Source: Oscillospiraceae bacterium (GTDB taxonomy: Bacteria; Bacillota; Clostridia; Oscillospirales; Oscillospiraceae). Taken from it: a DNA stretch of 64,000 bases. The stretch lies in NCBI GenBank assembly GCA_031261635.1, contig JAISJH010000018.1, positions 35,161 to 99,160 of the forward strand, read 5' to 3'. The position numbers were made by a program, and so were the translations under genes. The notes under the pieces were generated by a model that was not told where the DNA came from, did not search any database, and saw only the letters and a list, made by a program, of their open reading frames with translations. Of this stretch, positions 3,825-62,405 are shown in pieces (positions within the stretch are counted from its first letter, which is position 1; the number at the start of each line of letters is the position of its first letter).

Positions 3825-3984
3825 CCGTGTCAATATACGTTGCGGCGTGTAGGGGCGGGTTTCAAACCCGCCCTCCCCCGTCCCACGCCGTGCGCGTGGT
3901 GCGCCGTCCCGGCGCCCCGTCATTGCGAGCCGCGCGAAGCAATCCAAGCCCAGTACCCCCGGCTTACCCAGCGTCCCGGCGCAC

Positions 3985-4146
3985 CGTCATTGCGAGCGCC
4001 GCCGCACTTGCGATACGTAGGACGTATAGGCGCGCGGCAATCCAGTGCCGGGAGTGTAACATACGTATGTTTTCCCCCCGGCACTGGATTGCTTCGCACC
4101 TGTAACTGGGTACGTATCGCACACTTACCGGTGCTTCGCAATGACG
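3985..4146. repeat. Family A foldback element, copy 2
   Basis: The outer arms CGTCATTGCGAG and CTTCGCAATGACG bracket the inner pair GGCAATCCAGTGCCGG and CCGGCACTGGATTGC. It is nearly the same sequence as the copy at 49476-49636. Confidence 0.9.
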
Positions 4147-4308
4147 GACTTTTGAATGGCTACCTTTTCAATACACGTACAAAACCCACGTCCCGCGTCC
4201 CCCCCGTCCAAACCTCCGTCTCTGATATCTGATATTTGCTAACTGTTAACTGAACTATCGTCTCTGATATTTGATATTTGATAACTGTTATCTGGAATAA
4301 CTGCTAAC

Positions 4309-4346
4309 TGTCAACAGTTGACACGGTTTGCTAAATATGGTATAAT
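4309..4346 (+). promoter_or_regulatory. Sigma-A promoter with a palindrome over the -35 box
   Basis: TTGACA (4318-4323) and TATAAT (4341-4346) are 17 bp apart, with TG one base upstream of the -10. A perfect 7-1-7 palindrome, TGTCAACAGTTGACA (4309-4323), covers the -35 box and could be a repressor operator. The promoter drives the FAD oxidoreductase gene at 4393. Confidence 0.8.
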
Positions 4347-4392
4347 AACAAAAATAACACGTGTATTCGTAACACACAGAAAGGCGGCGCGT

Positions 4393-11084: not shown

Positions 11085-11641
11085 TAGTTAAAATACCTCG
11101 CAAGGAGGCCTTCAAACCCGCGCCCGTGCCGCGCTTCGTCTTTAGCCATTTCGTGAACGGTGTCGTGAATAGCGTCGTAGCCGAGTTCCTTGGCCTTTTT
11201 GGCAAGCTCGAATTTACCCGCCGTAGCGCCGTTTTCAGCCAAAGCGCGAAGCTCGATGTTTTTCTTAGTGTCCGGGTAGACAATCTCACCTAAGAGCTCG
11301 GCAAATCTCGACGCGTGGTCGGCTTCCTCCAGCGCGTAGCGTTTGAACGCTTCGGCGACTTCGGGATAGCCCTCGCGGTCAGCCTGACGGCTCATTGCGA
11401 TGTACATTCCGACTTCGGAACATTCGCCGTTGAAGTTGTCAACAAGACCCTGGTAAACCCAGTCGTCAATAGTACCCTTCTTGCCCGCGCCGATAACGTG
11501 TTCGGTAGCGTAGACTGTGGCACTGGCGGTTTCCTTGACTTCCTTGAACTTTTCAGCCCCCACCCCGCAGAGCGGACAAACATCGGGCGCGGAATTTCCC
11601 TCGTGAACATAGCCGCAAACTTCACAGATATACTTTTTCAT
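11084..11641 (-). CDS. Reverse rubrerythrin (NADH peroxidase-type), copy 1
   Basis: This 185-residue protein carries the rubredoxin domain at the N-terminus (C6, C9, C22, C25 in [12 protein letters not shown] and [11 protein letters not shown]). The ferritin-like diiron domain follows ([49 protein letters not shown]). This order is the reverse of classical rubrerythrin and matches clostridial oxygen-induced peroxidases. It should reduce hydrogen peroxide using electrons passed from NADH through partner proteins. A strong promoter (11703-11731) lies upstream, and the SD is GGAGG. A close paralogue is at 28866-29420. Confidence 0.93.
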
Positions 11642-11741: not shown

Positions 11742-12587
11742 TCAGTTAACAGTTATCAAATATCAAATATCAGAGACGATGGTTCAGTTAACAGTTAGCA
11801 AATATCAAATATCAGAGACGGGGGGCGCACACGGGGGTTGCGCCCTGCGGGGGACACCCCCCGCCTCTGCGGGCGGCACGTGCGCTCTCTAAAGAGGGGG
11901 GCTTTGGAGGGTGGGACGGGGGTTGCGGGGGACGCCCTGCGGGGGAACCACCCTGCCGCCTGCGGGCGGCACCCCTCCCAAGAGGGGAATGGGTTTGGAC
12001 GTGGGTTGCGGGGTTGCGGGTTGTTGCGGTTCGTAGGGGCGGGTTTGAAACCCGCCCTCTCCCGTAAATTCCCCTCCTGGGAGGGAACGCACCGCGTAGC
12101 GCCGGGGTGGTATCCCGCGCCGTGCGCGGACGTAACCCCGTCCAACGTCCCGGCGCATTGCGCCGGGACAGGGCAGGGCTTCGCCCTACCCGTCTTTGCG
12201 AAGCGCCACCGCACTTGCGATACGTACCGATGATATGCGGCGAAGCAATCCAGGGTTGACGTAGAACCTAGCGATACGTAGGCTGTATGTTATCCCCCCG
12301 GCACTGGATTGCTTCGCACCTGTAACGTCCTACGTATCGCAGGCCTACCGGTGCTTCGCAAAGACGGTGCGCCGGAGGGCGCACCACGGGCAGGGCGACG
12401 CCCTGTCCTGTCCCGGCGCAATGCGCCGGGACGGTGGACGTGAGTACGCCGCGCACGGCGCGGGGTGGGCGGGTTTGAAACCCGCCCCTACGTTTACGTT
12501 GTGCGTTCCCCGCAACCCCCGTCCAAACCCTCGTCTCTGATATTTGATATTTGATAACTGTTATCTGAATTATAACTGTTATCTGAA
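11742..12587. repeat. Intergenic repeat block bounded by inverted family B copies
   Basis: Two forward family B copies (11743-11778, 11785-11820) sit at one end and a reverse copy at the other (12532-12567, with a partial duplicate to 12586). Between them are family D modules (about 11880-12000 and 12060-12120), family C hairpins (about 12033-12060 and 12465-12492) and a family A element (12191-12366). No gene is supported here; open frames on both strands are translations of the repeats. Confidence 0.85.
12191..12366. repeat. Family A foldback element, copy 4
   Basis: It starts CGTCTTTGCGAAGCG and ends CTTCGCAAAGACG. The left inner arm is the variant GCGAAGCAATCCAGGGTTGA, also seen in the copies at 29915 and 62061, so it is a subfamily. 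Confidence 0.88.
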
Positions 12588-15630: not shown

Positions 15631-16260
15631 ATCAGCAGTTTATCCCACCAAATTAACCGCGAGATTCGCGACCGCGAAGTCCGGCTAATCGGCGAGGAGG
15701 GCGAACAACTCGGAGTTATGCCCGTCCGCGAAGCTATGGACATTGCTATCGAGCGCAACCTTGACCTGGTTAAAATTTCACCGGGCGCAAACCCGCCCGT
15801 GTGCAAGCTTATGGACTACGGCAAGTTCCGCTTTGAACAGACTAAACGCGACAAGGAAACCAAGAAAAACCAAAAAATTGTCGAAATCAAGGAAATTCGT
15901 ATGACCCCCGGTATCGGTCAGCACGATTTTGACACGAAGCTCAAGGCTGCGCGGGGCTTCCTCGACGGCGGCGACAAGGTAAAGGTCGCGGTGCGTTTCA
16001 GAGGCCGCGAAATGACGCATACTGACATCGGCGCGGAACTGCTGAAAAAATTCGCCGCCGCCTTAGAGGACATTGCGACAGTCAACAAGGACGCAAAACT
16101 CGACGGCAGGCATATGGCAATGTTTATGGCACCCAAAGCCGCACCGGCGGTTAAGGCGGCTCCCGCTCCTGTAGTTCCGGCGGGACCTACAGTTGTCGCG
16201 ACAGCTCTGGCCGAAGCGACTAAGGCAGAGAACAAATTGCAAATATCAAATATCAGATAA
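15631..16260 (+). CDS. infC: Translation initiation factor IF-3, with a non-canonical ATC start
   Basis: The product from 15631 is 209 residues. SSLSHQINREIRDREVRLIG matches the canonical IF-3 N-terminus, and the rest aligns through RFRGREMTHTDIGAELL. The start is assigned to ATC 15631 because AGAGGAGG lies 9 bases upstream. Rare AUU/AUC starts are a known infC feature used for IF-3 autoregulation. An ATG at 15499 is in frame, but it would add a 44-residue tail that reads through a family E repeat. The C-terminus has an Ala/Pro-rich extension of about 35 residues, and its last seven residues, LQISNIR, plus the stop codon are encoded by a family B repeat. Confidence 0.9.
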   Translation: MSSLSHQINREIRDREVRLIGEEGEQLGVMPVREAMDIAIERNLDLVKISPGANPPVCKLMDYGKFRFEQTKRDKETKKNQKIVEIKEIRMTPGIGQHDFDTKLKAARGFLDGGDKVKVAVRFRGREMTHTDIGAELLKKFAAALEDIATVNKDAKLDGRHMAMFMAPKAAPAVKAAPAPVVPAGPTVVATALAEATKAENKLQISNIR

Positions 16261-16785
16261 CGCGCTCGGCGCGGGACGGGGAAACCACCCCGCCGCCTGC
16301 GGGCGGCACCCCTCCACAGAGGGGATAGGGGTTTGGACGTGGGGTTGCGTTTAACCTCGTCTAACCTCGCCTAAACCTCGTCTAAACCTCGTCCAACTCC
16401 CGTCCCGGCGCACCGTCTTTGCGAGCCGCGGAAATTGTAAGATACGTAGGAAGTATAGCGGCGAAGCAATCCAGTGCCGCAGTCCGCAGATACGTATGTT
16501 ACGCTCCCGGCACTGGATTGCTTCGCGCCTAAAACCTTGTGCGTATCGCAAGCCTTCCGGCGCTCGCAAAGACGGCGCGCCGTATGGCGCACCCCGCGCA
16601 CGGCGCGGTACGGTGGACAGCGCACGAGGGCGGGTTTGAAACCCGCCCCTACGTCCCACGCGTCCCCGTCCAAACCCCCGTCATTGACAATTGTCAATTA
16701 TCAATTGTCAATTGTCATAACCTCCGTCTCTGATATTTGATATTTGATAACTGCAAACTAAAAAAGAAAGGACGATTAACAAATT
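16261..16785. repeat. Intergenic repeat block between infC and rpmI
   Basis: The block is entered through the family B sequence that ends infC (16231-16260). It holds a family D module (about 16285-16330), a family A element (16414-16574), a family C hairpin (about 16626-16653), a family E stretch (about 16684-16717) and a reverse family B copy (16725-16754) just ahead of rpmI. No gene is supported. The conserved infC-rpmI-rplT operon is thus split by about 525 bp. Confidence 0.85.
16414..16574. repeat. Family A foldback element, copy 5
   Basis: The outer arms are CGTCTTTGCGAGC and GCTCGCAAAGACG. Its central part, about 80 bp from GCGGCGAAGCAATCCAGTGC, is the same as in the copy at 17526-17684. 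Confidence 0.9.
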
Positions 16786-17758: not shown

Positions 17759-18505
17759 ATGTCAGGACACTCAAAATGGAACAATATACGCGAAAAGAAG
17801 GGTAAGACCGACGCTCAGAAGGCTAAGGTGGTTACTAAGATTTCGCGCGAGATTCTTGTTGCCGCGAAAGAGGGCGGCGGGGCTAATCCCGATACTAACG
17901 GCAAGCTCCGCGACGTAATCGCCAAGGCGCGGGCTAACAACGTACCTAACGATAACATCAAGCGTCTGCTTGACAAGGCGGCGGGCGCAAATAACGCAGA
18001 GAACTACGAGGCCAATATATACGAGGGCTACGGACCCGCCGGCGTAGCGGTTATGGTTGAGACTATGACCGATAACAGGAACCGCACGGCCAGCGAAATG
18101 CGCCACCTGTTCGACAAATACGGTAGCGGTATGGGAGCGCAGAACAGCGTGTCCTGGGGCTTCGAGCGCAAAGGTTTTCTGGCGGTTACGGCGGAGGGAA
18201 CGAGCGAGGACGCTCTTATGGAACACGCCCTCGACGCGGGAGCGGACGACATAGGCGTATCGGACGGCTACGGCGAGGACGGCGACGAAACTGCTTTTGA
18301 AATTCTCACATCAGTGGAAAATTTCAGCGCGGTGCGCGACGAACTAAGCTCCAAGGGCTACAGCTTCCTAAGAGCGGAACTGGTCTACCTCCCGGGAACA
18401 ACGGTAGAAATAACCGACGACGCTGACGCGGAACGTTTCAGAAAGCTAATAGACGCGCTAGAGGACAACGACGACGTACAAAACGTGTGGGCTAACGACA
18501 GATAA
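17759..18505 (+). CDS. yebC: YebC/TACO1-family protein
   Basis: The 248-residue product begins MSGHSKWNNIREKKGKTDAQ, the family signature, and continues with GGGANPDTNGKLRDVIAKAR and YEGYGPAGVAVMVE. This family was first annotated as transcriptional regulators and later linked to translation of proline-rich stretches by ribosomes. ATG 17759 is preceded by GAGG 8 bases upstream. An upstream in-frame extension would read through a family A repeat and is rejected. The stop codon TAA begins a run of AACAAAT repeats that merges into family B. Confidence 0.95.
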   Translation: MSGHSKWNNIREKKGKTDAQKAKVVTKISREILVAAKEGGGANPDTNGKLRDVIAKARANNVPNDNIKRLLDKAAGANNAENYEANIYEGYGPAGVAVMVETMTDNRNRTASEMRHLFDKYGSGMGAQNSVSWGFERKGFLAVTAEGTSEDALMEHALDAGADDIGVSDGYGEDGDETAFEILTSVENFSAVRDELSSKGYSFLRAELVYLPGTTVEITDDADAERFRKLIDALEDNDDVQNVWANDR

Positions 18506-18690
18506 CAAATAACAAATAACAAATAACAAATAACAGATATCAAATATCAAATATCAGATGTCCGCGCGGCGGGGACGGAGGGTAGGAAGTTATGCTATAA
18601 CGCCCCCCCGCAGGGCGCAACCCCCGTCCAAACCTTCGTCTCTGATATTTGATATTTGATAACTGTTATCTGCGCTGTTATTTGCGTGCG
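18506..18690. repeat. Short B-bounded intergenic segment
   Basis: Tandem AACAAAT units lead into forward family B (to 18559). About 75 bp of GC-rich family D-like sequence follow, then reverse family B (18637-18672). The segment separates two convergent genes. Confidence 0.8.
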
Positions 18691-20304
18691 CTACCGCGCA
18701 CGTGTAACTATGAGCATACCGTTTGCGGCGGTGTCCGCGTCGTCGGAGAGGCCGTTTGCGGCTCTTATTAGGGTTTGGGTTGAGCTGTATTTTTTTGCTA
18801 TTGACCAGAGCGTGTTTTCCGGTGATACTCTTGCTAATACTAAGGACGGTACGCCCTCGAAGCTTTTTGCTTCGCCTACTGTTACCTCGGTTACAGGTTC
18901 CGCAGTTGCCGCTTCAAACCCGCGTACTTGTAGCTCTACAGGGACGCGGATTTCTATAGCGCCCGCTATCGGCGCGGCAAAGGCTTCGCCCAGTACGAGC
19001 TTGCCTGTGGCCTCGCTGTCCGCTTCAAACTCGGGGGTTTTGAAATCGACCTCTACGCGCCCCTGTATGCTTAGGCAGCGGTCGTCCTCGCCTACGTAGA
19101 GGATATCCGCCGTGAGCGTTGCTGAAAAGCCGTCATTATCGCGGCGAACGCGCCCCGGATATACGCGCACGCAGGTAACGGCGCGGGCAGGGTCGGGAAT
19201 AGGCAGCGAGGCGCGGATTGAATCCCTGTAGACCTGCTCTTTACCTAAGCCGCTGATTGTATAGCGCTCGGTTTTGCAGTCGGTTTCGTGCGAGGTGGAA
19301 TAAGCGTCCGCTATGTAGGGCGCGGCGATTTTCTGCCACACTACGGCCTGCGCCAGAATTGGTATTTCTATCAGAACTCTCGAGGCTCCGTAGCTGTCCT
19401 CGCTGGCTTCCTGAACGTAGCTTCCCGTAGGAACGAGCGTTACGTCAAAGGAGCGGTTATCGTCCTCCGCTGAAACGTCAATAATCTCTGAAAACGGCAC
19501 GGCGAAATCAGCCGACTGCAAGTCTGACGTATCTGTCGAGAGATAAACAATGCCGATGTTAGCCGTACCCTTGACGACCGCCTTAGCTCCCGCCGGCTTC
19601 GTTTCCTCGGGCGTTAGGGTAACGTTTGATTTAACAATCGAGCTGATAGGCGCTTTGCCGCTCGGCAGGGTGAGTTCCTCGGAAACGGTAAAAGGCTTTT
19701 CGCCTATATCGACGACGGGGTTAATCTCTAGGAAACCGTTTCGCACTTCGGGTTTTAGCGTTGTGCCTTTAGCGTCCGCTTTCGCGGCTTCGGGATTGTA
19801 AATGACGGCTTCGGGTCTGCCCTTAGCGTCCGCTTTTGCCGTTGCGGGGGCGGGCTTATCCTCCGGGACAGACGTTAGCGGTATCGTTCCGTTGCCGTAG
19901 GCGTCAACCTCAAACAGCAAATCCGCGCGGAACAGGAGTTTGCGCGAGTTCAGCAAACGCGCCTCAATCCCGGAGAGTTTTACAGTCGCTACAAGCCTGC
20001 TGCCGGGCGAAATTTCGCTGTTTTCGAGCGTAATCGAAAAGGGAATTTGCGTTGACAGTCCGCGCGGCTTCGCCGAACCCTCCGGCATATAAATAGCGTG
20101 AGCGCGGATAAGCCCCGAGAGCGTGACGGAACCGTCTCCCGCCTCCTTGCTTTTGAGAATTGCCGTACCGTCTGAATTGACGATAGAGAGCGCGTCCGGC
20201 AGGGAATCGGGGACAATAAGCTCCTGCGTTTCCTCCTGCGTGGCGGTCAGGTGCGCCAGTTTGCGGTAGTAATTGATATTGTTGGTTTTGAGTTTCATTT
20301 CCAT
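18691..20304 (-). CDS. SipL-like spore morphogenetic protein (DUF3794 repeats plus LysM)
   Basis: This 537-residue protein lacks a signal peptide. It contains DUF3794-type beta domains (ALSIVNSDGTAILKS; IPFSITLENSEISPGSRLVA; VTCVRVYPGRVRRDNDGFSA) and a C-terminal LysM-like motif (LARVSPENTLWSIAKKYSST and LIRAANGL). This is the layout of clostridial SipL, which binds SpoIVA and is needed for spore coat assembly. A linker around residues 150-185 carries two KADAKG units. The SD AGGAGA supports ATG 20304. It lies 66 bp after a small membrane protein gene on the same strand. It is the only sporulation-type gene in the window. Confidence 0.85.
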   Translation of the reverse strand: MEMKLKTNNINYYRKLAHLTATQEETQELIVPDSLPDALSIVNSDGTAILKSKEAGDGSVTLSGLIRAHAIYMPEGSAKPRGLSTQIPFSITLENSEISPGSRLVATVKLSGIEARLLNSRKLLFRADLLFEVDAYGNGTIPLTSVPEDKPAPATAKADAKGRPEAVIYNPEAAKADAKGTTLKPEVRNGFLEINPVVDIGEKPFTVSEELTLPSGKAPISSIVKSNVTLTPEETKPAGAKAVVKGTANIGIVYLSTDTSDLQSADFAVPFSEIIDVSAEDDNRSFDVTLVPTGSYVQEASEDSYGASRVLIEIPILAQAVVWQKIAAPYIADAYSTSHETDCKTERYTISGLGKEQVYRDSIRASLPIPDPARAVTCVRVYPGRVRRDNDGFSATLTADILYVGEDDRCLSIQGRVEVDFKTPEFEADSEATGKLVLGEAFAAPIAGAIEIRVPVELQVRGFEAATAEPVTEVTVGEAKSFEGVPSLVLARVSPENTLWSIAKKYSSTQTLIRAANGLSDDADTAANGMLIVTRAR

Positions 20305-23295: not shown

Positions 23296-23510
23296 GTTGC
23301 AGATAGCAGATAACAGATAACAGTTATCAAATATCAAATATCAGAGACGAAGGTTTGGACGTGGGTACGGCACCCCCCGCGCCTGCGGGCGCACCCCCCT
23401 CTAAAGAGGGGGGCTTTGGAGGGTTTGGTCGTGGGTCGCGGGTTTTGGACGTGGGACGTGTATTCACAAGGTAGCCATTCAAAAGTCCGTCATTGCGAAG
23501 CACCCTCCCC

Positions 23511-23838: not shown

Positions 23839-24191
23839 GCTACGCGGCACCCCTCCCAAGAGGGGAATTTACGGGGGAGGCTTCCGCAAGCCTACAAGCC
23901 GCAAGCCTGCAAGCCTGTAAGCCCGCAAGCCCGCAAGCCACGTGTGCGCCCCTATTCCCCTCTTGGGAGGGGTGCCGCCGCAGCGGCGGGGTGGTTCCCC
24001 CGCAGGGCGTAGCCAACGTCCAAACCCTCCAAAGCCCCCCTCTTTAGAGGGGCGGGGGGTGTCCCCCGCCCCTACGCAACCCACGTCCAAACCATCGTCT
24101 CTGATATCTGATATTTGCTAACTGTTAACTGTAATATCGTCTCTGATATTTGATATTTGCTAACTGTTATTTGAAACAACGAGGTATTGCA

Positions 24192-28865: not shown

Positions 28866-29420
28866 CTACTTAAAATACCGCGCGAGCAGTCCCTCGAAGC
28901 CGCGTCCGTGGCGTGCCTCGTCCTTTGCCATTTCGTGAACCGTGTCGTGTATCGCGTCGTAGTCGAGCTGTTTCGCCTTTTTCGCAATCTCGAATTTGCC
29001 CGCCGTTGCCCCGTTTTCCGCCAGAGCGCGGAGTTCGAGGTTCTTTTTCGTGTCGGGATAGACAATCTCGCCCAAAAGCTCCGCGAATTTCGCGGCGTGT
29101 TCGGCTTCCTCGAGCGCGTAACGCTTGAACGCCTCGGCGATTTCAGGATAGCCCTCGCGGTCGGCCTGACGGCTCATCGCGAGATACATTCCGACTTCCT
29201 TACATTCGCCGTCGAAATTCTCAACAAGTCCCTGGTACACCCAGTCGTCGATAGTACCCTTCGCGCCCGCGCCGATAATGTGTTCCGTAGCGTAGGCGGT
29301 AGTCCCGGCGGCGGCGACTTCGTTGAACTTCGCGGCACCCGCGCCGCAAAGCGGGCATTTATCGGGCGGCGCGTCGCCCTCGTGAACATAACCGCAGACC
29401 GCGCAGACATACTTTTTCAT
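28866..29420 (-). CDS. Reverse rubrerythrin (NADH peroxidase-type), copy 2
   Basis: The 184-residue protein has the same layout as copy 1: N-terminal rubredoxin ([23 protein letters not shown]), then the diiron domain ([38 protein letters not shown]). It is very similar to copy 1 along its whole length, so it is a paralogue within 18 kb. This copy is transcribed alone. It has its own strong promoter with a perfect palindrome at the transcription start and its own terminator, so the two copies are probably regulated differently. SD AGGAGG supports the start. Confidence 0.93.
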
Positions 29421-35789: not shown

Positions 35790-36301
35790 AAGGGGTACCC
35801 CCCAATCGCGCGCGATTGGGGGTCAGTTAACAGTTAGCAAATATCAAATATCAGAGACGGAGGTTCAGTTAACAGTTAGCAAATATCAGATATCAGAGAC
35901 GATTGGTTTGGACGGGGGTTGCGCCCTGCGGGGGAAACCACCCCGCCCCTGCGGGGGCACCCCTCCACAGAGGGGATGGGGGTTAGGACGTGGGATGCGG
36001 CGCGCACGGTGCGGATTACACAATCCCGTCCCCCGCAACTCTCGTCCAAACCCCCGTCCAAACCCCCGTCCAAACCCCCGTCCAAACCCCCGTCCAAACT
36101 CTCGTCCAAACCCGCGTCCTCATCCCCTCTGTGGAGGGGTGCCGCCCGCAGGCGGCGGGGTGGTTTCCACCGTCCCTCGTCCCGGCGCCGTGCGCCGTCT
36201 TTGCGAAGCGCCGTACGGCGCACCCCGCGCACTGCGCGTAGGACGGGAGAGGGCGGGTTTGAAACCCGCCCCTACGTTTGTTATGCTTATTAGGCTGTTC
36301 T
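35790..36301. repeat. Intergenic repeat block with a 12-bp tandem array
   Basis: Two forward family B copies (35824-35859, 35865-35901) lead into family D (about 35935-35980), the GTCCAAACCCCC tandem array (36044-36115), another family D module in inverse order (about 36120-36170) and a family C hairpin (36249-36275). No gene is supported. Confidence 0.85.
36044..36115. repeat. Six tandem 12-bp units of GTCCAAACCCCC
   Basis: Four units are exact and the last two vary (GTCCAAACTCTC, GTCCAAACCCGC). The unit is the same GTCCAAAC sequence that borders family B elsewhere, so this looks like local amplification of an element end. There are no spacers, so it is not CRISPR. Confidence 0.9.
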
Positions 36302-38554: not shown

Positions 38555-38580
38555 TTCAGATAGCAGATATCAAATATCAA

Positions 38581-38623
38581 ATATCAGCTAGCAGGTATCT
38601 ATAATCTGCTAGCTGATATTTTA
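38581..38623. terminator. 14-bp stem terminator between convergent genes, embedded in family B
   Basis: ATATCAGCTAGCAG and CTGCTAGCTGATAT enclose an 11-base loop and are followed by TTTTAA. The arms are continuous with forward and reverse family B sequence, so this is the smallest B-bounded unit in the window. Confidence 0.75.
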
Positions 38624-38657
38624 ATATATCTGATATTTGATAACTGTTAACTGCAAT

Positions 38658-39963: not shown

Positions 39964-40216
39964 AGCCCCTTGTGTGTAAATATCAGTTATCAAATATCAA
40001 ATATCAAATAACGATTAGCAGAACGCGTATTCAAACAGTAAAGACGCAAGAGTTCGTCATTGCGAGCCTGCGGCACTGGATTGCTTCGCGCCTAGACCGC
40101 GTTGTATGTTGAGATTTCCGGCGCTCGCAATGACGGACTTTTTAATTTTTCACGTTTTCAATGTGGCTTGCAAGCAGTTATTAAATATTTGATATTTGAT
40201 ATTTGATAACTGTTAA
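39964..40216. repeat. B-bounded intergenic segment with a shortened family A element
   Basis: Forward family B (about 39978-40012), a deleted family A copy (40055-40135) and reverse family B (about 40176-40216) fill the gap. Confidence 0.82.
40055..40135. repeat. Family A element, copy 10, internally deleted
   Basis: The outer arms CGTCATTGCGAGCC and CGCTCGCAATGACG are intact, but one inner arm is missing. The left outer arm runs straight into GCGGCACTGGATTGCTTCGC, giving 81 bp instead of about 160. Confidence 0.88.
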
Positions 40217-45341: not shown

Positions 45342-48300
45342 ATGGTGCAGTTTGACGCTATCAAAATAGGTATCGCCTCGCCGGAATCCATTCTCGAGTG
45401 GTCAAGGGGCGAGGTAACGAAGCCGGAGACAATTAACTACCGCACGTTAAAGCCCGAGAAGGACGGTCTGTTCTGCGAAAAAATATTCGGACCCACTAAA
45501 GACTGGGAATGTCACTGCGGAAAATATAAAAAAATCCGCTTTCGCGGCAAGGTCTGCGAACGCTGCGGCGTGGAAGTTACGAGCCAGAAAGTTCGCCGCG
45601 AGCGTATGGGGCATATCGCCCTTGCCGCGCCTGTTAGCCATATATGGTATTTTAAGGGGATACCGTCCCGAATGGGCTTAATCCTCGATATATCGCCGCG
45701 AACTCTTGAAAAGCTTTTGTATTTCGCCTGCTATGTTGTTATCGAACCCGGCTCCACGCCGCTTTTGCGTAATCAGATTTTAACTGAAAAAGAGTTCCAC
45801 GAGTTCCGCGAAAAATACGGCGGGGATTTTAAGGCGGGAATGGGCGCGGAGGCTGTTAAGGAACTGCTCTCAAACCTCGACCTTGACGCGCTGTCGTTCG
45901 AGCTTCGCTCACAGCTGACGGACGCGCAGGGGCAGAAGAAAGCTAAGATTGTCAAGCGTTTAGAGGTTGTCGAGGCGTTCAGACTTAGCGGCAATAAGCC
46001 GGAGTGGATGATAATAGACAACCTCCCGGTTATACCGCCGGAGCTTCGCCCTATGGTTCAGCTGGACGGCGGACGCTTTGCCACGAGCGACTTGAATGAC
46101 CTCTACAGGCGGGTTATCAATCGTAACAACCGTCTGCGGCGTTTGTATAAATTATCCGCGCCGGACATAATCGTTCGCAACGAGAAGCGTATGTTACAGG
46201 AGGCCGTTGACGCGCTGATTGACAACGGCAAGCGCGGCCGCGCCGTAACGGGTATGAACTCGCGCGTGTTAAAATCCTTATCGGATATGCTGAAAGGCAA
46301 GCAGGGGCGTTTCCGCCAGAACCTTTTGGGTAAGCGCGTTGACTATTCCGGGCGTTCGGTTATAGTCGTAGGACCCGATTTGAAACTTTATCAGTGCGGT
46401 TTGCCCAAGGAAATGGCTATAGAGCTGTTCCGCCCCTTTGTAATGAAAAAGCTCGTGAGTGACGGCTTTGCTAATAATATTAAATCGGCAAAGAAAATGG
46501 TTGACCGGGGCAAGACGGAGGTTTGGGACGCGCTTGACGATATTATCAAAGAACACCCTGTGCTACTGAACCGCGCTCCTACGCTTCACAGGCTCGGTAT
46601 ACAGGCCTTTGAACCCGTACTGGTTGAGGGGCGGGCTTTGAAACTGCACCCGCTTGTTTGTACTGCCTATAACGCCGACTTCGACGGCGACCAAATGGCG
46701 GTACACGTCCCGCTCTCCGCTGAAGCGCAGGCTGAGGCGCGTATCCTTATGCTGTCTGCTAATAACCTACTGCGGCCGCAGGACGGTAAGCCTGTAACCG
46801 TTTTGTCGCAGGATATGATACTCGGCGCGTATTACCTCACTAACGAAACTAAAATCCCGGAGGGTACGGTTCTCCGCGTTTTCCGCGACGTCGCCGAGGC
46901 GCAAATGGCCTATGACAACGGCGATATTAAAATCCACGACCCGATTCGCGTTAGGCGCGTAAAGGGCGATATTTCAGCGATTGTAACTACCACAATCGGG
47001 CGCATTATCTTTAACGAATCGGTGCCGCAGGATTTAGGCTTTGTTGACAGAACTATCCCCGGCAACGAACTTGTGTTTGAGATTGGCTTCCTCACTAAAA
47101 AGAAGCACCTCAACGATATTATTGACCGCTGTATCTCACAGCACGGTTTTACGAAATCGACCGAAGTGCTTGACGCCTTGAAAAACCTCGGCTTCAAGTA
47201 TTCGACGCTCGGCGCGATAACTATTTCAATCTCCGATATGACGGTTCCGAGCAAGAAGCAGGAGCTTATTGAGGCGACTAACGGCAAGGTTATAGAGATT
47301 GAATCGCTCTACCGCGAGGGCGAGATAACAAACGACGAACGCGCCCGCCTTGTTATAGCGGAGTGGGAGCGCACTACTACGGAAGTCACGGCGGCGCTTG
47401 AGGGTACGCTTGACGAGTTTAACCCGATATATATGATGGCGGACTCCGGGGCGCGCGGAAGTATGGCGCAGATACGCCAGCTCGCGGGTATGCTCGGCCT
47501 GATGTCCTCAACCTCCGGCAAAACCATTGAAATTCCGATTAAGGCTAATTACCGTGAGGGCTTGACGGTTCTTGACTACTTCATTAACTCACGCGGGGCG
47601 CGTAAGGGGCTTGCCGATACCGCGCTTCGGACGGCCGACTCGGGTTATCTTACCCGCCGCCTTGTCGATGTTTCGCAGGACGTTATAATCCGCGAGCCCG
47701 ACTGCGGAACGCGCCAGGGCGTTACGGCAAACGAAATACGCGAAAACGGTCAGGCGGTACGCACCTTTGCCGACAGCATACACGGGCGTTTCCCGCTCGA
47801 CGATATCGCAGACCCCGCTACCGGCGAGCTTCTCTTTAGCCATACCACTATGCTTAAATCAAAGGACGCTAAGGTTTTAGAGGCCGCGGGGATTCACGAA
47901 ATACAAATCCGCTCGGTGCTTGCCTGCGAGGCAAAGCGCGGCGTTTGCGCGAAGTGCTACGGAATGAACCTCGCTACAGGCGGTCCCGTTTCAGAGGGCG
48001 AAGCCGTCGGGGTTATCGCCGCGCAGTCTATCGGCGAACCCGGTACTCAGCTTACAATGAGAACCTTCCACACGGGCGGCGTTGCCGGCGACGATATTAC
48101 GCAGGGTCTGCCCCGCGTTGAGGAGCTGTTTGAAGCGCGTAAGCCTAAGAAAATGGCGATACTGGCGGAGATTTCCGGCAAAATCGCGGCGGATACCGAG
48201 AAAACTAAAAAAGGCAATATCATTGTCTACAACATTATCAACGAGGAGGCCGGGGAAGTCTGGAGCTTCCAAACCTCGGCGGCCGCGCTCAAAGCCAAAG

Positions 48301-49313
48301 AGGGCGACTACGTTGGTAAAGGGCAGAAGCTTACGGACGGCGCGCTCTATCCCGCCGATGTCCTGCGTATCAACGGCATTGAGGCCTGCCAGAATTATCT
48401 TATACAGGAAGTTCAGAAAGTGTACCGCCAGCAGGGCGTTGATATTAACGATAAGCATATCGAGGTCATAGTGCGCCAGATGATGCGTAAGGTTCGCGTT
48501 GACGATTCGGCCTCCTCCGAGTTCCTCTCCGGCTCAACTGTCGATATGGGCGACGTGGTCAGGACGAATATTGAAACTACGCTGAACCTCTCTGACGACA
48601 GCTTTGACGTATTCGGCGAGGTTGAGCTTGACGCGGACGCGGACTTCACGCTTGACGCTGACGATACGGATATCCTGCCGGAGGGCGAGCGCGATACTGT
48701 GATAAGCGTCCCGGACACTATCGAGGACGGACAGGTGACGTTCACGCGCCTGCTGATGGGTATAACAAAGGCGTCGCTCGCGACTGAAAGCTGGCTATCT
48801 GCGGCGAGTTTCCAGGAAACGACAAAGGTACTGACGGACGCGGCAATCCGCGCTAAGGTTGACCATTTGGTCGGCTTGAAAGAAAACGTAATAATCGGAA
48901 AACTAATCCCGGCGGGCAGCGGGCTTGAAGTATACCGCGAGTTTGAGGACGTACTGGTAAACCGCTACGCCGAGGACGCGCTGCCGGAAACGGCCTACAC
49001 GGAATTTGACGCCTACGAAAAAGCCCTGGCGGAGGCGGAGATAGACGCGTACCTGGACGCCCAAGAGAAGCCGGAAATTGAAGCCGAAGCGGAAATCGAA
49101 GCGGAGATTGAAGCCGAAGCCGAAATTGAGGCCGAAGCGGAAATCGAAGCCGAAGCGGAGATTGAAGCCGAAGCGGAGATTGAGGCCGAAGCGGAGATTG
49201 AGGCTGAAGCGGAGATTGAAGCCGAAGCAGAAATTGAGGCCGAAGCGGAGATTGAGGCCGAAGCGGAAGAAGTAGCCGAACAAAAACAGGAAACAGAACC
49301 TATAACCGAATAA
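45342..49313 (+). CDS. rpoC: RNA polymerase beta' subunit with an acidic insertion and an EIEAEA-repeat tail
   Basis: The 1323-residue protein keeps the zinc-binding start ([20 protein letters not shown]), the catalytic [20 protein letters not shown] and the trigger-loop region ([18 protein letters not shown]). Before the conserved [20 protein letters not shown] it has an enlarged acidic stretch (about 60 residues, [16 protein letters not shown]). After the usual end, residues 1245-1308 are ten EIEAEA units plus one EIEA unit, followed by [15 protein letters not shown]. The tail has no basic residue. Start 45342 has GAGGAAG upstream, inside the end of rpoB. The terminator hairpin follows at 49316. 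Confidence 0.97.
49074..49265 (+). repeat. Coding tandem repeat (18-bp unit) in rpoC
   Basis: The unit is GAA-ATT-GAA-GCC-GAA-GCG with synonymous changes (GAG, ATC, GAG, GCT, GCA). It occurs ten times, with one 12-bp short unit in second place. Every change keeps the EIEAEA protein pattern. Confidence 0.95.
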
Positions 49314-51248: not shown

Positions 51249-51629
51249 CGGCGGGTTATAACGTTGGGGCGGGTTTCAAACCCGCCCGCCGGAGGCTTGC
51301 TCAATCACCGTGTTTGTTTCCGCGCCATTTTGTAGGGGCAGGGTACGCCCTGCCCGTCATTGCGAAGCGCCGGTAAACTTGCGATACGTAGGACGTTACA
51401 GGCGCGAAGCAATCCAGTGCCGGGGGCGTAACATACGTATCTGAGGACTGCGGCACTGGATTGCCGCGCGCCTAAACCGGGTTATATGTTTAGCTTCCCG
51501 GCGCTCGCAATGACGGACTTTTTAGTCTTACGCGTTTTGAATATAGCTTTACATATTAAATATCAGATATCAAATATCGAATATCAGATATCAGATACTA
51601 AATATTTGTTATTTGTTATTTGTTATTTG
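51249..51629. repeat. Intergenic repeat block
   Basis: Family C (about 51264-51289), family A (51355-51515) and an extended family B tract (51555-51645) fill the gap. The last 16 bp of family B lie inside the 3' end of the glycosidase gene on the minus strand. Confidence 0.85.
51355..51515. repeat. Family A foldback element, copy 12
   Basis: The outer arms are CGTCATTGCGAAGCGCCGG and GGCGCTCGCAATGACG. The inner arms are GCGAAGCAATCCAGTGCCGG and GGCACTGGATTGC. Confidence 0.9.
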
Positions 51630-53345
51630 TCAACTGTTATCTGTCAAAAGTTCCGCTAGCAGTAGGTACACGCTCGCGGGCCAGGCGGAGAACGGGTATG
51701 TTACGCTGCCGCCGCCCTTAAATTCGGGGACGGGGGAGTGGTCGCGCGGCTCGAAGCGGTAGGGGTTTATCGCGAGCGCCAAGCCCTCTTTGTTTAGAGC
51801 GTTCAGGTACCTTGCGGCTATTAGTTTAGCCGCTTCTTTTTCGCCCGCGTCGTACAGGCCGTAGACTATTAACGCCTGCGCGGGAGCCATTACGGGGCCG
51901 CGCGAAAAGCTTAGGGCGCGGTAGTCGGGGCTTTGCAGGTTTTCGCCAGTTATGCCGTAGGCTGAAAAAAACTCGTTAGGGTCGGTCAGGCGTTTAGCTA
52001 GAGTTTTAACAATGCTGCCCGGCAACCTGTGACCGAGGCAGACCGCCTGTAACTGCGCCACGGAGCCGCATTTGTGCTTTTCTTTTGTAAGGGGCGCGTA
52101 GGCGAGGAACTGTTCGCCGTCCCATAATTCGTTTACCAAATACTCTAAGGTGTGCTTACTTAGGGAAGTAAAAAAGCCGAAGTCGTCCCTGCGCCCGAGT
52201 ATGTCCGCGATTTTGGCACAGGCTTCGCAGAGGCAGGCGGCGTAGGCAAGCAAATCCGGCGATACCAGCGGCAAACCCTTGTCGAACAGCGTTGATTCGT
52301 CGTAGCCGGATTCGTCGATATGATAATACTGCGGCACGCCTATTTTAGCGTGGTCGTGATGAGTGTACCAATAGCGCGTATAGCTTGAAAGTTTTTCATA
52401 GATGTTGCGATAATCGGCGGTAGTGAGCGCGGAGAGGTCGAAATTTTCTAAGATATAGCACGCGCTCCAGCCAAAAATAGGCGGCTTGCTTGATATCCAC
52501 GTCTCCTGGTGAAGGTCAGAGAGGTTATCGGGGAAGATGCCGTATTCGTTCTGATAATCAAACATAGCGAGCAGGGTTTCAAAGGCTTTTTTAGCGTCAT
52601 TTCGCATAGCCATAGCGTGAAAACCGTGGTGCCAGCCAAAGGCGCGGTCAAACCAAATCTTCTGCATATAGATAACGCGCGAAGTGAGCGCGCCGCGCGG
52701 TCCGAGCTGACTGTGCCACACGACCCACTTAGCCCGCTCCGCCATCTCCGCGTAGGCGGGGGCTACGGCGGGGTAACGCCTTGAAAAGGCCGTATAATCC
52801 GCGCCCGTTTCGCGAACGCAGACCTCGAAGGGTTTATACACCTCCGGCGTTGGGAGGTTTGAGTAATACTCGTGTATCGCAAGTTCTCCGGCGGCGGTAA
52901 TCCCGTCGCCGTTGTAGGTCATTTCGCCTGTTAGATTGCGAAACAGCAGTTTCCCGATAAAATTAAACGTGACCTCTACGGCTTCTAAAGAGCGCACACG
53001 CGTACTCTCGCCCTCCTGCGCGACGTATGTGAAGCGCAGGGTTACGCCGTTTGTACGTATTCTGAGCGTTTGAGCGTTTTCGTAGGTAATCTCTATCGTC
53101 CCTTTTGCCGTGGTAATAGTCAGCAAGCTCTCGTCGCAACTGTAGGAAAAATCAAGTTCTAAGCCGTCCGCGACGGGCGTTAGTTTTACTAAGTTAGGAC
53201 GCTCGTTGATAACCTGCACCGAGCGGCACATATTCAAATATAAGCCGCCGTCCGAATACTCCTGATAGACATTGAGAAACGCCCTCGCGCGTGAAAAGGG
53301 TACGCGCTCTAAGGTGAATTGTTCGTCCGTTCCGAATAGTTTCAT
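51630..53345 (-). CDS. Glycoside hydrolase-like protein, (alpha/alpha)6 barrel (GH63/MGH1-like)
   Basis: In this 571-residue protein, the N-terminal 190 or so residues look like a beta-sandwich (LELDFSYSCDESLLTITTAK). The rest fits an (alpha/alpha)6 catalytic barrel (WFDRAFGWHHGFHAMAMRND, YQNEYGIFPDNLSDLHQETW, KPPIFGWSACYILE, FSRGPVMAPAQALIVYGLYD, PFSAWPASVYLLLAELL). This resembles GH63 or MGH1-type glucosidases. No signal peptide is visible, so it acts in the cytoplasm. It overlaps the upstream related gene by 4 bp (ATGA). The last residues, LTDNS, and the stop codon are encoded by a family B repeat, so the original C-terminus has been replaced or trimmed. Confidence 0.78.
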   Translation of the reverse strand: MKLFGTDEQFTLERVPFSRARAFLNVYQEYSDGGLYLNMCRSVQVINERPNLVKLTPVADGLELDFSYSCDESLLTITTAKGTIEITYENAQTLRIRTNGVTLRFTYVAQEGESTRVRSLEAVEVTFNFIGKLLFRNLTGEMTYNGDGITAAGELAIHEYYSNLPTPEVYKPFEVCVRETGADYTAFSRRYPAVAPAYAEMAERAKWVVWHSQLGPRGALTSRVIYMQKIWFDRAFGWHHGFHAMAMRNDAKKAFETLLAMFDYQNEYGIFPDNLSDLHQETWISSKPPIFGWSACYILENFDLSALTTADYRNIYEKLSSYTRYWYTHHDHAKIGVPQYYHIDESGYDESTLFDKGLPLVSPDLLAYAACLCEACAKIADILGRRDDFGFFTSLSKHTLEYLVNELWDGEQFLAYAPLTKEKHKCGSVAQLQAVCLGHRLPGSIVKTLAKRLTDPNEFFSAYGITGENLQSPDYRALSFSRGPVMAPAQALIVYGLYDAGEKEAAKLIAARYLNALNKEGLALAINPYRFEPRDHSPVPEFKGGGSVTYPFSAWPASVYLLLAELLTDNS

Positions 53346-54603: not shown

Positions 54604-55230
54604 GCGATAACAGATAACAGATATCAAATATCAAATATCAGAGACGTTGGTTTGGACGGAGGTTGCGTAGGGGCGGGTTTCAAACCCGCCCCGTTGGTTT
54701 GAACCAGTATGTAGGGGCAACGCACCTCGCCTCGCCCGGATTGCGTAACCCACGTCCCCTGTCCCGGCGCACCGCGCCGGGACAGGGCAGGGCTTCGCCC
54801 TGCCCCGTCATTGCGAGCCGCGCGAAGCAATCCAAGCCCAGTCCCCCCGTCCAACTCCGCGCAGTGCGCGGGGTGCGCCGTGACGGCGCACCGTCATTGC
54901 GAAGCACCGGTACGCCTGCGATACGTAGGACGTTACAGGTGCGAAGCAATCCAGTGCCGGGGGACAACATACGTATGTTACGCTCCCGGCACTGGATTGC
55001 CGCGCGCCTGTAACGCCCTACGTATCGCAAGTGCGGCGGCGCTCGCAAAGACGGCGCACGGCGCCGGGACGTGGGACGCGGGACGGGGGAGGGCGGGTTT
55101 GAAACCCGCCCCTACGTTTTATTGTGCAACCCGCAACCCCGTCCCCGTAACCCTCGTCCTAACCCCCGTCTCTGATATTTGATAACTGTTATTTGCTATA
55201 TTGCTAACTGTTATTTATTTGAAGTTTTCT
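54604..55230. repeat. B-bounded intergenic repeat block before livK
   Basis: Forward family B (54605-54646), family C (54667-54692 and about 54712-54745), a partial family A end (about 54806-54843, same breakpoint as the partial copy at 3918), a full family A element (54892-55053), family C (about 55090-55118) and reverse family B (55167-55219) fill the block. No gene is supported. Confidence 0.85.
54892..55053. repeat. Family A foldback element, copy 13
   Basis: The outer arms are CGTCATTGCGAAGCACCGG and GGCGCTCGCAAAGACG. The inner arms are GCGAAGCAATCCAGTGCCGG and CCGGCACTGGATTGC. Confidence 0.9.
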
Positions 55231-55366: not shown

Positions 55367-56575
55367 ATGAAACGTATTCTCGCACTCTCCCTCGCGCTCG
55401 TGATGACTTTCGCAATGTTCGCGGGCTGTTCGTCTAACGATAACGCCGCGGGAACGGCCGCTTCGGGCGGTGATACCGCAAGCAGCGGCAAAATTATTAA
55501 ACTCGGCATTTTCGAGTCGCTTTCAGGCGATAACGGCGCCGGAGGCAAGCAGGAAGCCCTCGGTTACGTTTACGCGAACTACGTTCAGCCGACTGTCGAA
55601 ATCGGCGGCGAAACGTACACAATAGTTCTCGAAACGGTTGACAACGAAAGTTCGACCGACAAAGCCCCCTCGGCGGCTCAGAAGCTCGTTTCGCTCGGAG
55701 TGAGCGCGGTTCTCGGCTCCTACGGTTCGGGCGTGTGTCTTGCTTCCTACAGCGTTTTTGAAGCGGCGGGTCTGCCAATGCTGACCGTTTCCGCGACTAA
55801 CCCGCAGGTTACGGCTGATAACGATACCGTTTTCAGACTGTGTTTCCTTGACCCGTTCCAGTCAACGGTGCTTGCGAACTACGCCTTTACCTCGCTGAAC
55901 GCGACTAACGCCTACGTGCTTTCAAAGCAGGGCGACGACTACAGCGCGGGGCTTGCGAACTACTTCAAAGAGGAATTTGAAAAACTCGGCGGCACGGTAA
56001 CCGACGAGCAGTTCCCGCAGGGCAACACCGATTTCTCAAGCTACGTCGCAAACGCCAAAAAAGCCGGGGCGCAGGTTTTCTTCAGCCCGGTAAGCACCGA
56101 AGCCGCATCGAACATAATCGACCAGGCGGACGCTCAGGCGCTCGGTATTCCTATCCTCGCCGGCGATACCTGGGACAGCAACGTTATCACGCAGTCCGCG
56201 AAAGGCAAGAATGTTGAGATAAATATTGACACATTCTACCAGGAGAGCGGCACTCCCTTCGACTTAGCGTTCAAAGAGTGGATTTCAGAGGATTCCCGCC
56301 GTCTGGCCGACAATAACGGCGACGACACGCTCGCGGCATTCTCCGTAATGGCCTACGACGGCTACTTCACAATGCTCGAGGCGATAAAAGCCGCCGACAG
56401 CGCCGACGCGGGAGCGATAAAAGCGGCTCTCTCCGGAGTAAACTATAACGGCGAAACCGGCGCGATAGCTTTCGACGACACAGGCGACGCGTTCCGCGAC
56501 AGCGCCTACATAAAAACAGTAGACACAGAAGCCGGAGCCTGGAGGTTCCTTGAAGTCGCAACGGTAAACAGTTAG
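55367..56575 (+). CDS. livK: Branched-chain amino acid ABC transporter substrate-binding lipoprotein
   Basis: The 402-residue protein has a lipoprotein signal (MKRILALSLALVMTFAMFAG, then C21), a Ser/Gly/Ala linker, and a periplasmic-binding-protein fold of the Leu/Ile/Val type: KLGIFESLSGDNGAGGKQE, VSLGVSAVLGSYGSGVCLAS, VSATNPQVTADNDTVFRLCF. It captures branched-chain amino acids or related ligands outside the membrane for LivHMGF. SD CGGAGG supports the start. The final residues NS and the TAG stop come from AACAGTTAG, the first unit of a family B tract. A 1.1 kb B-bounded cassette separates it from livH. Confidence 0.93.
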   Translation: MKRILALSLALVMTFAMFAGCSSNDNAAGTAASGGDTASSGKIIKLGIFESLSGDNGAGGKQEALGYVYANYVQPTVEIGGETYTIVLETVDNESSTDKAPSAAQKLVSLGVSAVLGSYGSGVCLASYSVFEAAGLPMLTVSATNPQVTADNDTVFRLCFLDPFQSTVLANYAFTSLNATNAYVLSKQGDDYSAGLANYFKEEFEKLGGTVTDEQFPQGNTDFSSYVANAKKAGAQVFFSPVSTEAASNIIDQADAQALGIPILAGDTWDSNVITQSAKGKNVEINIDTFYQESGTPFDLAFKEWISEDSRRLADNNGDDTLAAFSVMAYDGYFTMLEAIKAADSADAGAIKAALSGVNYNGETGAIAFDDTGDAFRDSAYIKTVDTEAGAWRFLEVATVNS

Positions 56576-56674
56576 TCCAGTTAACAGTTAGGACAGTTAA
56601 CAGTTATCAAATATCAAATATCAGAGACGATAACAGGACGTAGGGGCGGGTTTCAAACCCGCCCTTTTGGTGGC

Positions 56675-58661: not shown

Positions 58662-58969
58662 TTATAGTTCAGTTAACAGTTATCAAATATCAAATATCAA
58701 ATGACGCGCGCGGCGCGGGACGGGGGAGACCACCCCGCCGTCTGCGGACGGCACCCCTCCACAGAGGGGATGAGGACGGGGAATTAGACGAGGGTTACGA
58801 AAACCGTCGTTCCCCGCCTCCCACGTCTAACCCCTATCCCCTCTTGGGAGGGGTGCCGCCCGCAGGCGGCGGGGTGGTTCCCCCGCAGGGCGCACCTCCG
58901 TCCAAACCCTCGTCTCTGATATTTGATATTTAATACCTGTTATCTGAAAATATGAGAGGTAACAACCGA
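58662..58969. repeat. B-bounded repeat segment inside the liv operon
   Basis: Forward family B (58669-58703), a family D module (about 58725-58775), an inverse family D module (about 58830-58890) and reverse family B (58911-58946) lie between livH and livM. No promoter or gene is seen. Confidence 0.85.
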
Positions 58970-60127
58970 GTGAACAACATCAAACACCGCAGGCAGAAGC
59001 GTATTCTTACAATAGTCAACGCCGCGCTGGTACTTGCGATTTTCGTCGCGGTTTTCATTGCGGAACAGGTACTGCCGCAGACCAGTATGCTTTTTGTCGT
59101 GCTTAAAAAAGGCTCTATCTACGCGCTGATTGCCGTTTCTATGAACCTCTTAAACGGTTTTACGGGGCTGTTCAGTCTCGGGCAGGCGGGCTTTATGCTT
59201 ATCGGAGCCTACGTTTACGGGATATTCACTATTCCGGAGGAATTTAGGCAGAGCGTTTACCAGTATTTCGACGGCGGGCTGATACATTTCACCGTGCCTA
59301 TAGTAATCGCGCTCGTAATGGCGGGAGCCGCCGCGGCGATTTTCGCGGCTCTTATAGGCCTCCCGGTACTGCGGCTTAAGAGCGACTACCTCGCAATCGC
59401 TACGCTCGGGTTTGCGGAAATTCTGCGCGCGCTGTTCCAGTGGAAAATTATCGGTCCCGTTACTAACGGCTCAAACCTTTTGCGGAAATTCCCGAATTTT
59501 AACGATTTCAATATTAAAAACGCGGACGGGCAGGTTGTGCTGTACTTATCCACGCTCGTGCCGTTTATAGTCGCGGGAGTGTGTATACTGCTGATTGTCC
59601 TGCTGATACGTTCAAGCTACGGCAGGGCGTTCCGCGCAATCCGCGACGACGAGATTGCCGCCGAAGCTATGGGGGTAAACCTTTTCAAGCATAAACAGCT
59701 CGCGTTCGTTATAAGCTCGTTTTTCGCGGGCGTAGGTGGCGCGTTGCTCGCGATGTACCAAATGGCGATACAGGCAAACGCCTTTACAAGCGCGATGACC
59801 TACGAAATACTGCTGATAGTCGTAATTGGCGGCTTAGGCTCCGTAACCGGCAGTTGCTTCGGGTCGTTCCTGTTTATCGCGGCGTCCGAATGGTGGCTTC
59901 GCGGGCTTGACAGCGGAGCTTTCCTCGGGATTAACGCGCCGGGGGTTTTCCGCGCGGGTTTCAGAAAGGTCGTATTCGCCGTGATAATTATGGCGGTGGT
60001 GCTATTCTACCGCAAGGGCATAATGGGCGACAGCGAGTTCTCGGCAAAACGCATAGCTGAAAGATTCCGAAGGATTTTTATGAAGCGAAAGTCAAAAATT
60101 GAAGCGGTTGATTCAATTGACAATTGA
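58970..60127 (+). CDS. livM: Branched-chain amino acid ABC transporter permease LivM
   Basis: The 385-residue membrane protein has the signatures SMNLLNGFTGLFSLGQAGFM, SDYLAIATLGFAEILRA, AFRAIRDDEIAAEAMGVNLF and VIGGLGSVTGSCFGSFLFI. GTG 58970 is preferred as the start because AGAGG (58955-58959) sits 10 bases upstream, whereas ATG 58952 has no SD. The C-terminal residues SIDN and the TGA stop are encoded by a family E repeat (TCAATTGACAATTGATAATT), so the tail has been altered by the insertion. Confidence 0.93.
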   Translation: MNNIKHRRQKRILTIVNAALVLAIFVAVFIAEQVLPQTSMLFVVLKKGSIYALIAVSMNLLNGFTGLFSLGQAGFMLIGAYVYGIFTIPEEFRQSVYQYFDGGLIHFTVPIVIALVMAGAAAAIFAALIGLPVLRLKSDYLAIATLGFAEILRALFQWKIIGPVTNGSNLLRKFPNFNDFNIKNADGQVVLYLSTLVPFIVAGVCILLIVLLIRSSYGRAFRAIRDDEIAAEAMGVNLFKHKQLAFVISSFFAGVGGALLAMYQMAIQANAFTSAMTYEILLIVVIGGLGSVTGSCFGSFLFIAASEWWLRGLDSGAFLGINAPGVFRAGFRKVVFAVIIMAVVLFYRKGIMGDSEFSAKRIAERFRRIFMKRKSKIEAVDSIDN

Positions 60128-60403
60128 TAATTGATAATTGACAATTCAGGTTGCTTTTTTGACTAAGGTAGTTCTAAGTATCGTAACCCCCGTCCCTCCC
60201 CCGTCATTGCGAAGCCGCCACCGCACTTGCGATACGTAACATTGAAACGCGGCGAAGCAATCCACGGTTGACGTAGTATCCTACGATACGTTAGGTTAGG
60301 ACGAGGGAACTGGGCTTGGAAAGCTTGGCGCGGCTCGCAATGACGGCGCACTGCGCCGGGACGTAGGACGAGGTTTTTCATCACAACTAGGAGAGATAAC
60401 ACG
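60128..60403. repeat. Repeat segment between livM and livG
   Basis: The family E tract continues from the livM stop (to about 60147) and is followed by a partly degraded family A element (60202-60345). It ends about 35 bp before the livG SD. Confidence 0.82.
60202..60345. repeat. Family A foldback element, copy 14, degraded
   Basis: The outer arms CGTCATTGCGAAGCCGCC and GGCTCGCAATGACG are intact, but the right inner arm is lost. GCGAAGCAATCCACGGTTGA is of the GGTTGA subfamily. Confidence 0.82.
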
Positions 60404-61913: not shown

Positions 61914-61972
61914 GTCAGATAATAGTTATCAAATATTAAATATCAGATTTATCCTCCTGAAGCGGGGGAGTG

Positions 61973-62001: not shown

Positions 62002-62060
62002 TACAACATCGCGGGGAGTGAAGCCGTTGCACGTCCCCATAACAGCGAAGCGCCCGCTCC

Positions 62061-62245
62061 CGTCATTGCGAAGCCGCCGCCGCACTTGCGATACGTACTA
62101 TTGATATGCGGCGAAGCAATCCAGGGTTGACGTAGAACCCTGCGATACGTAGGCACGTAGGCTGTATATTGTCCCCCCGGCACTGGATTGCTTCGCACCT
62201 GTAACGTCCTACGTATCGCAAGCGTACCGGTGCTTCGCAATGACG
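62061..62245. repeat. Family A foldback element, copy 15
   Basis: It starts CGTCATTGCGAAGCCGCC and ends GCTTCGCAATGACG. The left inner arm is of the GGGTTGA subfamily, closest to the copy at 12191. Confidence 0.88.
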
Positions 62246-62405
62246 AACTCTTTAACTATCAGCAAAATGTGAGCCGTACACACGCTCCGCGCAACCAAAC
62301 GTCCAAGCCCCCGCAACTGTTCACTGTTCATTGTTAACTGAATAACCCCCGTATTTGATATTTGATATTTGATAACTGTTATTTGCAACAAAGAGGATTT
62401 TTACC

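Follow-up and report, generated by a model that had tools for sequence, protein, structure and literature searches.

In a 64,000-nucleotide stretch of Oscillospiraceae bacterium DNA, here called the window, several genes stop within or directly beside tandem repeats of 7-bp units, and the locus raises the question of whether such repeats are aimed at stop codons or come to end there for another reason. A sequence-only reading of the window had proposed that the products of a glycosidase gene, livK, livM and infC take their C-termini from repeat DNA, and that the repeats insert at or very near stop codons. We followed these proposals across 942 kb of the genome (G000, 88.9% complete) and in its nearest relative, Oscillospiraceae assembly JAISLB (82% protein identity), which matches a same-genus sister genome (G001); both are fragmented metagenome assemblies. 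The pattern is better explained by repeat filling that is limited by what selection protects than by any aiming at stops. In this gut bacterium palindromic repeat islands fill nearly all the spare intergenic DNA, and their 7-base edges press against stop codons, so that in a small number of proteins the last residue, or the last few, is encoded by repeat.

The glycosidase (51630-53345, minus strand) ends LLTDNS-stop, encoded by TTGACAGATAACAGTTGA, and had been read as taking LTDNS from the repeat. Its sister ends LLTAG-stop, encoded by GAACTGCTGACAGCGGGCTAG, so that TTGACAG is ancestral coding DNA merely resembling the repeat; LT is thus ancestral, and the repeat-borne part is limited to DNS and the stop, GATAACAGTTGA (51630-51641, minus strand). 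The B-family heptad array that overlaps this stop (51602-51643, minus strand) is the right arm of a palindrome whose left arm lies at 51564-51598 on the plus strand. The other three proposals stood. LivK reads VNS-stop from GTAAACAGTTAG, with its stop at 56573-56575; it ends VATVNS-stop where the sister ends VATVG-stop, the NS-stop being AACAGTTAG (56567-56575, plus strand), and a B array begins 2 nt past the stop (56578-56621, plus strand). The LivM end SIDN, encoded by TCAATTGACAATTGA, draws IDN and the TGA stop (60125-60127) from a family E array of ATTGAYA heptads (60116-60143, plus strand) that is missing from the sister; LivM ends VDSIDN-stop here and VENE-stop there, and no heptads follow the livM stop in the sister or in two further relatives. 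The end of infC is encoded by a B array (16240-16260, plus strand), and the sister infC also ends in heptads, of different sequence. Judged against the sister, the repeat appears to have swapped only the last few codons of the glycosidase, livK and livM. An outgroup distinguishes insertion from loss at a minority of sites; at livM, further relatives likewise lack repeats past the stop.

The same reading had noted other stop codons abutting repeats, and these were borne out by the array finder and by stop distances. B arrays lie 2 nt past the MCP stop (38557-38584, plus strand), with another 4 nt from the stop of the gene convergent with MCP (38626-38653, minus strand); 2 nt from the stop of the flavodiiron-like FDP gene (12540-12585, minus strand); and at +4 nt, flush with the DUF1934 stop (40185-40212, minus strand). 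The yebC stop is supplied by an array starting at -7 nt (18499-18554, plus strand), whose convergent partner (18645-18672, minus strand) is separated by 18 nt from the stop of gene 18691-20304. Further arrays on the plus strand lie 4 nt past the stop of a DivIVA-like gene (23300-23341; its partner arrays, 24104-24173, leave 18 nt to the following start), 8 nt past that of livH (58670-58697; partner 58919-58946) and 2 nt past that of livF (61916-61936; partner 62351-62385, which leaves 20 nt to the following start). The window matched nothing in Rfam or in a tRNA scan, and a plasmid search with a stitched repeat query was likewise empty.

The reading had also proposed measuring the distance from stop codons to the nearest repeat throughout the genome, with a flat distribution counting against it. 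We ran this measurement on 942 kb, or 41% of the genome. Genes were called with a simple caller of our own, which is approximate and gives too low a coding coverage for the sister; the period-7 array finder detected 0 arrays in composition-shuffled sequence. Period 7 stands out against periods 5-13, with 462 arrays of tandem 7-bp units at many intergenic sites; 15 of the 462 sit more than 40 nt inside a called coding sequence, which is otherwise nearly free of arrays. Distances proved very unevenly distributed, and that objection falls. Among 201 stops that face an array-bearing gap, 112 have the nearest array within 10 nt: the array starts before the stop's end at 31, at 0-5 nt at 66 and at 6-10 nt at 15, so repeat-supplied C-termini are the minority. 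Placing arrays independently within the same gaps gave 14.5 within 10 nt of a stop (sd 3.5, maximum 27 in 1000 runs), and moving all arrays of a gap together as one rigid unit gave 36.9 (sd 3.4, maximum 48). In a 681-kb subset, 79 of 85 near-stop arrays share a single orientation, reading away from the stop. That AT-rich, low-complexity repeats containing TAA and TGA only seem to overlap stops is scarcely credible: stop trinucleotides do occur in the heptads, but the two placement nulls exclude this account, and the shuffled sequence, which yielded no arrays, and the sister genome also speak against it.

The arrays are the outer layer of larger palindromic islands. Reading inward from either gene, an island consists of 7-bp heptads (CAAATAT, CAGTTAT, CAAATAA, CAGTTAA and similar units, as in CAGTTAA CAGTTAT CAAATAT CAAATAT CAGAGAC), then 12-mers (CGTCCAAAC...), then REP-like hairpins in mid-island, followed by the mirror image; relative depths within the island are 0.20 for B heptads, 0.48 for 12-mers and 0.58-0.75 for REP-like motifs. 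The mid-island motifs are CGTCATTGCGAG (55 copies) and CGTCTTTGCGAG (30 copies). The two arms of an island resemble each other (0.874) no more closely than arms taken from different islands do (0.870; p = 0.27), so that entry as a single palindrome with matching arms is unsupported. Composite REP-like units of the form CGTCATTGCGAG...GCAATCCAGTGCCG were observed in the window at 1579-1741, 3984-4147, 16413-16576, 51353-51477, 54890-55055, 60194-60291 and 62053-62246. They resemble REPs of the CGTC type, and the host lineage is outside the five phyla given for these in PMC3733652.

What happens on the other side of genes bears directly on whether stops are preferred. An array lies within 10 nt of only 1 start codon, against 16 expected and the 112 cases on the stop side. 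Start-side arrays, which have the same orientation relative to the gene, instead adjoin the Shine-Dalgarno site or lie upstream of the promoter. A promoter scoring at least 9/12 is found in 59 of 93 start-side spacers of 45-250 nt (19 expected in shuffles); it lies outside the array in 52 of these, and in 38 of the 52 the -35 box (TTGACA) is 2-27 nt downstream of the array edge. As a separate observation, the promoters abutting arrays in start-side spacers are very regular (TTGACA-N17-TATAAT, for example at window 4311-4392), and they should be useful for promoter mapping in this lineage. Among gaps of at least 100 nt, arrays occur at similar rates whether the flanking genes are divergent (28 of 63), tandem (130 of 255) or convergent (32 of 49). 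Repeat coverage defined independently of heptads, as 14-mers with at least five occurrences, is 0.5% of coding DNA and 35% outside it; it rises from near 0 inside coding sequences to an interior plateau of about 0.48, which is reached 15-20 nt beyond the stop and never exceeded. The arrays do crowd stops, as the sequence-only reading had supposed, but start-side edges, divergent gaps and coverage together show no preference for stops as such.

Islands thus occupy otherwise functionless spacer up to the nearest functional boundary, which at the 3' end of a gene is the stop codon and at the 5' end the Shine-Dalgarno site or the -35 box. Since the same arrays are found at -35 and Shine-Dalgarno edges and in divergent gaps, and coverage only reaches its plateau, the stop is a functional boundary with almost no margin. 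We infer that palindromic islands probably entered short spacers and that selection then purged the damaging ones, leaving survivors whose ends are flush. Palindromic repeats would enter the short spacers of a compact genome, and selection would remove those that disrupt a gene, a promoter or a ribosome site. If an island cut into the end of a gene, translation could still terminate within a few codons, at a stop provided by the heptads or by the junction, and the protein would differ only in one to a few residues, gained or exchanged; the heptads might afterwards be replaced where they stand, species by species. This account needs no function at the stop codon.

The exact register of the arrays speaks for insertion targeted to stops. 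Stop distances peak exactly at -14/-7/0, +2 and +4 nt; the +2 and +4 classes hold 26 and 15 stops, whereas neighbouring distances are nearly empty (2, 4 and 4). The stop is TAG at 17 of the 26 stops of the +2 class and at 81 of 392 array-free stops (p = 3e-6 for a class picked post hoc). An element could prefer the stop, for example the TA of TAA or TAG, with its own first base (G or A) rebuilding the codon (TA-GTTCAG or TA-GTTAACAG, the hyphen marking the junction), and several +3 cases reading TGA-GTTCAG or TGA-GTCCAG are consistent with a terminal G. We nevertheless regard such targeting as unlikely. Stop-free divergent gaps carry islands about as often, TAGNN does not precede CAG at start-side edges, and three of five sister orthologs of the +2/TAG class are already TAG; the heptads themselves contain TA, making registers 0 and 4 partly definitional, and no TA duplication is demonstrated. 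Equally doubtful is a form of the idea in which the stop sets the register of a heptad-ended palindromic element that enters at the stop or 2 nt beyond it, leaving the stop preserved or rebuilt, and whose heptads are later replaced in place; were it true, such replacement would leave shared gene ends with a different repeat in each sister species. The peaks at 0, +2 and +4 and the TAG excess at +2 are unexplained by neutral insertion and selection, and this residual effect could hold a real insertion preference.

Across 90 syntenic gene pairs, the sister often has almost no spacer where an island of 200-650 bp stands here; spacer lengths in the sister and here are, for instance, -1 and 595, -8 and 399, 4 and 652, 31 and 239, and 38 and 362 nt. 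The sister gaps are too diverged for a clean reading of junctions. Period-7 tracts are equally dense in the two genomes (9.6 per 100 kb), and the sister has one at 18 of 42 orthologous array-flush stops compared with 7 of 78 other stops (Fisher p = 3e-5). Its heptads are mostly different (CAGTGGT, CAGTGAA, CAGATAG and also GTTAGTG), and an exact core, CAAATATCAAATATCAGA, occurs in 553 copies here, in 3 in the sister and in none among 78 other relatives. Shared tracts at orthologous stops combined with different heptads indicate that the location is common to both species and that the sequence has turned over. In the sister itself (loci L065-L144), 20 of the 33 tracts with a stop within 400 nt lie within 10 nt of it. 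Repeat-encoded ends do not amount to widespread protein change, as 31 of 42 array-flush orthologs keep their end residue.

Conserved position with different sequence at orthologous stops, together with the single orientation, might be taken to mean that arrays are retained past stops as terminators, as protectors of mRNA 3' ends or as backstop codons. We consider such a function very unlikely, since the arrays are AT-rich and not terminator-like, the same arrays lie upstream of promoters and ribosome sites, and period-7 tracts number zero in 118 kb from seven other relatives. Within 45 nt the arrays close 1.64 of three reading frames, compared with 2.14 in their own shuffles, and a role as backstops is contradicted by these counts.

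Somewhat more room is left for outward growth, in which slippage would lengthen the heptad array and deletion would shorten the spacer, until array and functional boundary touch. Heptad number is variable and heptad type turns over between the sisters. Growth may contribute, because convergent islands with both arms found mostly abut each of the two stops even though the median array-free convergent gap measures 117 nt. Slippage by itself adds DNA and leaves the spacer in place, and many syntenic sister spacers are already very short; we hold outward growth to be possible and rather less probable than not. The readings overlap, and confidence in island entry with selection does not exclude some growth or some targeting. 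As to a mobiliser, three transposase families were searched for and none was identified as the enzyme: the Y1 (RAYT) transposase PF01797 was absent from both genomes, the IS630-type PF13358 was absent, and IS110 appeared only as a fragment below the cut-off. RAYT and IS630 are thus unsupported as candidates.

Tandem 7-bp units between genes are familiar from the STRR heptanucleotide repeats of filamentous cyanobacteria, which have other units and another host. Correia and ERIC elements are short palindromic intergenic insertions (small palindromic MITEs), some of them TA-targeting; for the islands described here neither target-site duplication nor a cognate transposase is demonstrated. The GTAG/CGTC-tagged REPs are intergenic palindromes: between convergent ORFs the distance to the 3' ends is mostly below 20 bp, and in tandem pairs they lie close to the upstream ORF's end. 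They form mosaics with other repeats, and their GTAG termini often supply a TAG stop (PMC3733652). Island cores carry CGTCATTGCGAG...GCAATCCAGTG, a likeness to CGTC REPs at the level of motifs. The flush edge here is an AT-rich heptad array with the REP in mid-island, the nearest relatives are Oscillospiraceae/Clostridiales, outside the five phyla reported for CGTC repeats (PMC3733652), and the Y1/RAYT transposase of the GTAG system was not found in either genome. The TAACTGA heptads of Beggiatoaceae, Cyanobacteria and Bacteroidetes are 7-bp direct repeats, mostly intergenic and strain-specific, the majority of sets being placed in one orientation shortly before a start codon; 13 sets overlap the upstream ORF's stop, and stops within the repeat limit overlap into the gene (PMC4679880). 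Read on the opposite strand, the heptads here (TAACTGT...) come close to TAACTGA, but the units are mixed, AT-richer and not TAACTGA, they edge palindromic islands at both gene ends flush with stops, Shine-Dalgarno sites or -35 boxes, and only 1 start-side array falls within 10 nt compared with 112 on the stop side.

The genome-wide pattern is strong and partly known in kind, as both REP proximity to 3' ends and overlap of heptads with stops are published; what is added here is the nested palindromic island with heptad edges, the way these edges abut functional boundaries of three kinds, and heptad turnover at gene ends shared by the sisters. With different heptads at shared gene ends in the two species, and with -35 boxes and ribosome sites outlined by array edges as well, the repeats show where intergenic DNA comes under purifying selection in an uncultured lineage. 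The recurring puzzle of short bacterial repeats that hug stop codons becomes testable, and a mobile or expanding repeat can nibble at protein C-termini while barely altering their length.

Other repeats were also observed in the window. A 12-bp tandem array, AACCCCCGTCCA, at 36037-36132 is the second layer of the islands grown to about eight units. An 18-bp tandem repeat (49008-49295, about 11 overlapping registers) lies near the 3' end of the ORF at 45342-49313, which encodes a protein of 1323 aa, and corresponds to a C-terminal hexapeptide-repeat region. Finally, positions 11085-11384 and 28867-29166 form a 300-nt duplication between two genes, 82% identical, and both proteins end in a common 10-residue stretch plus one residue.
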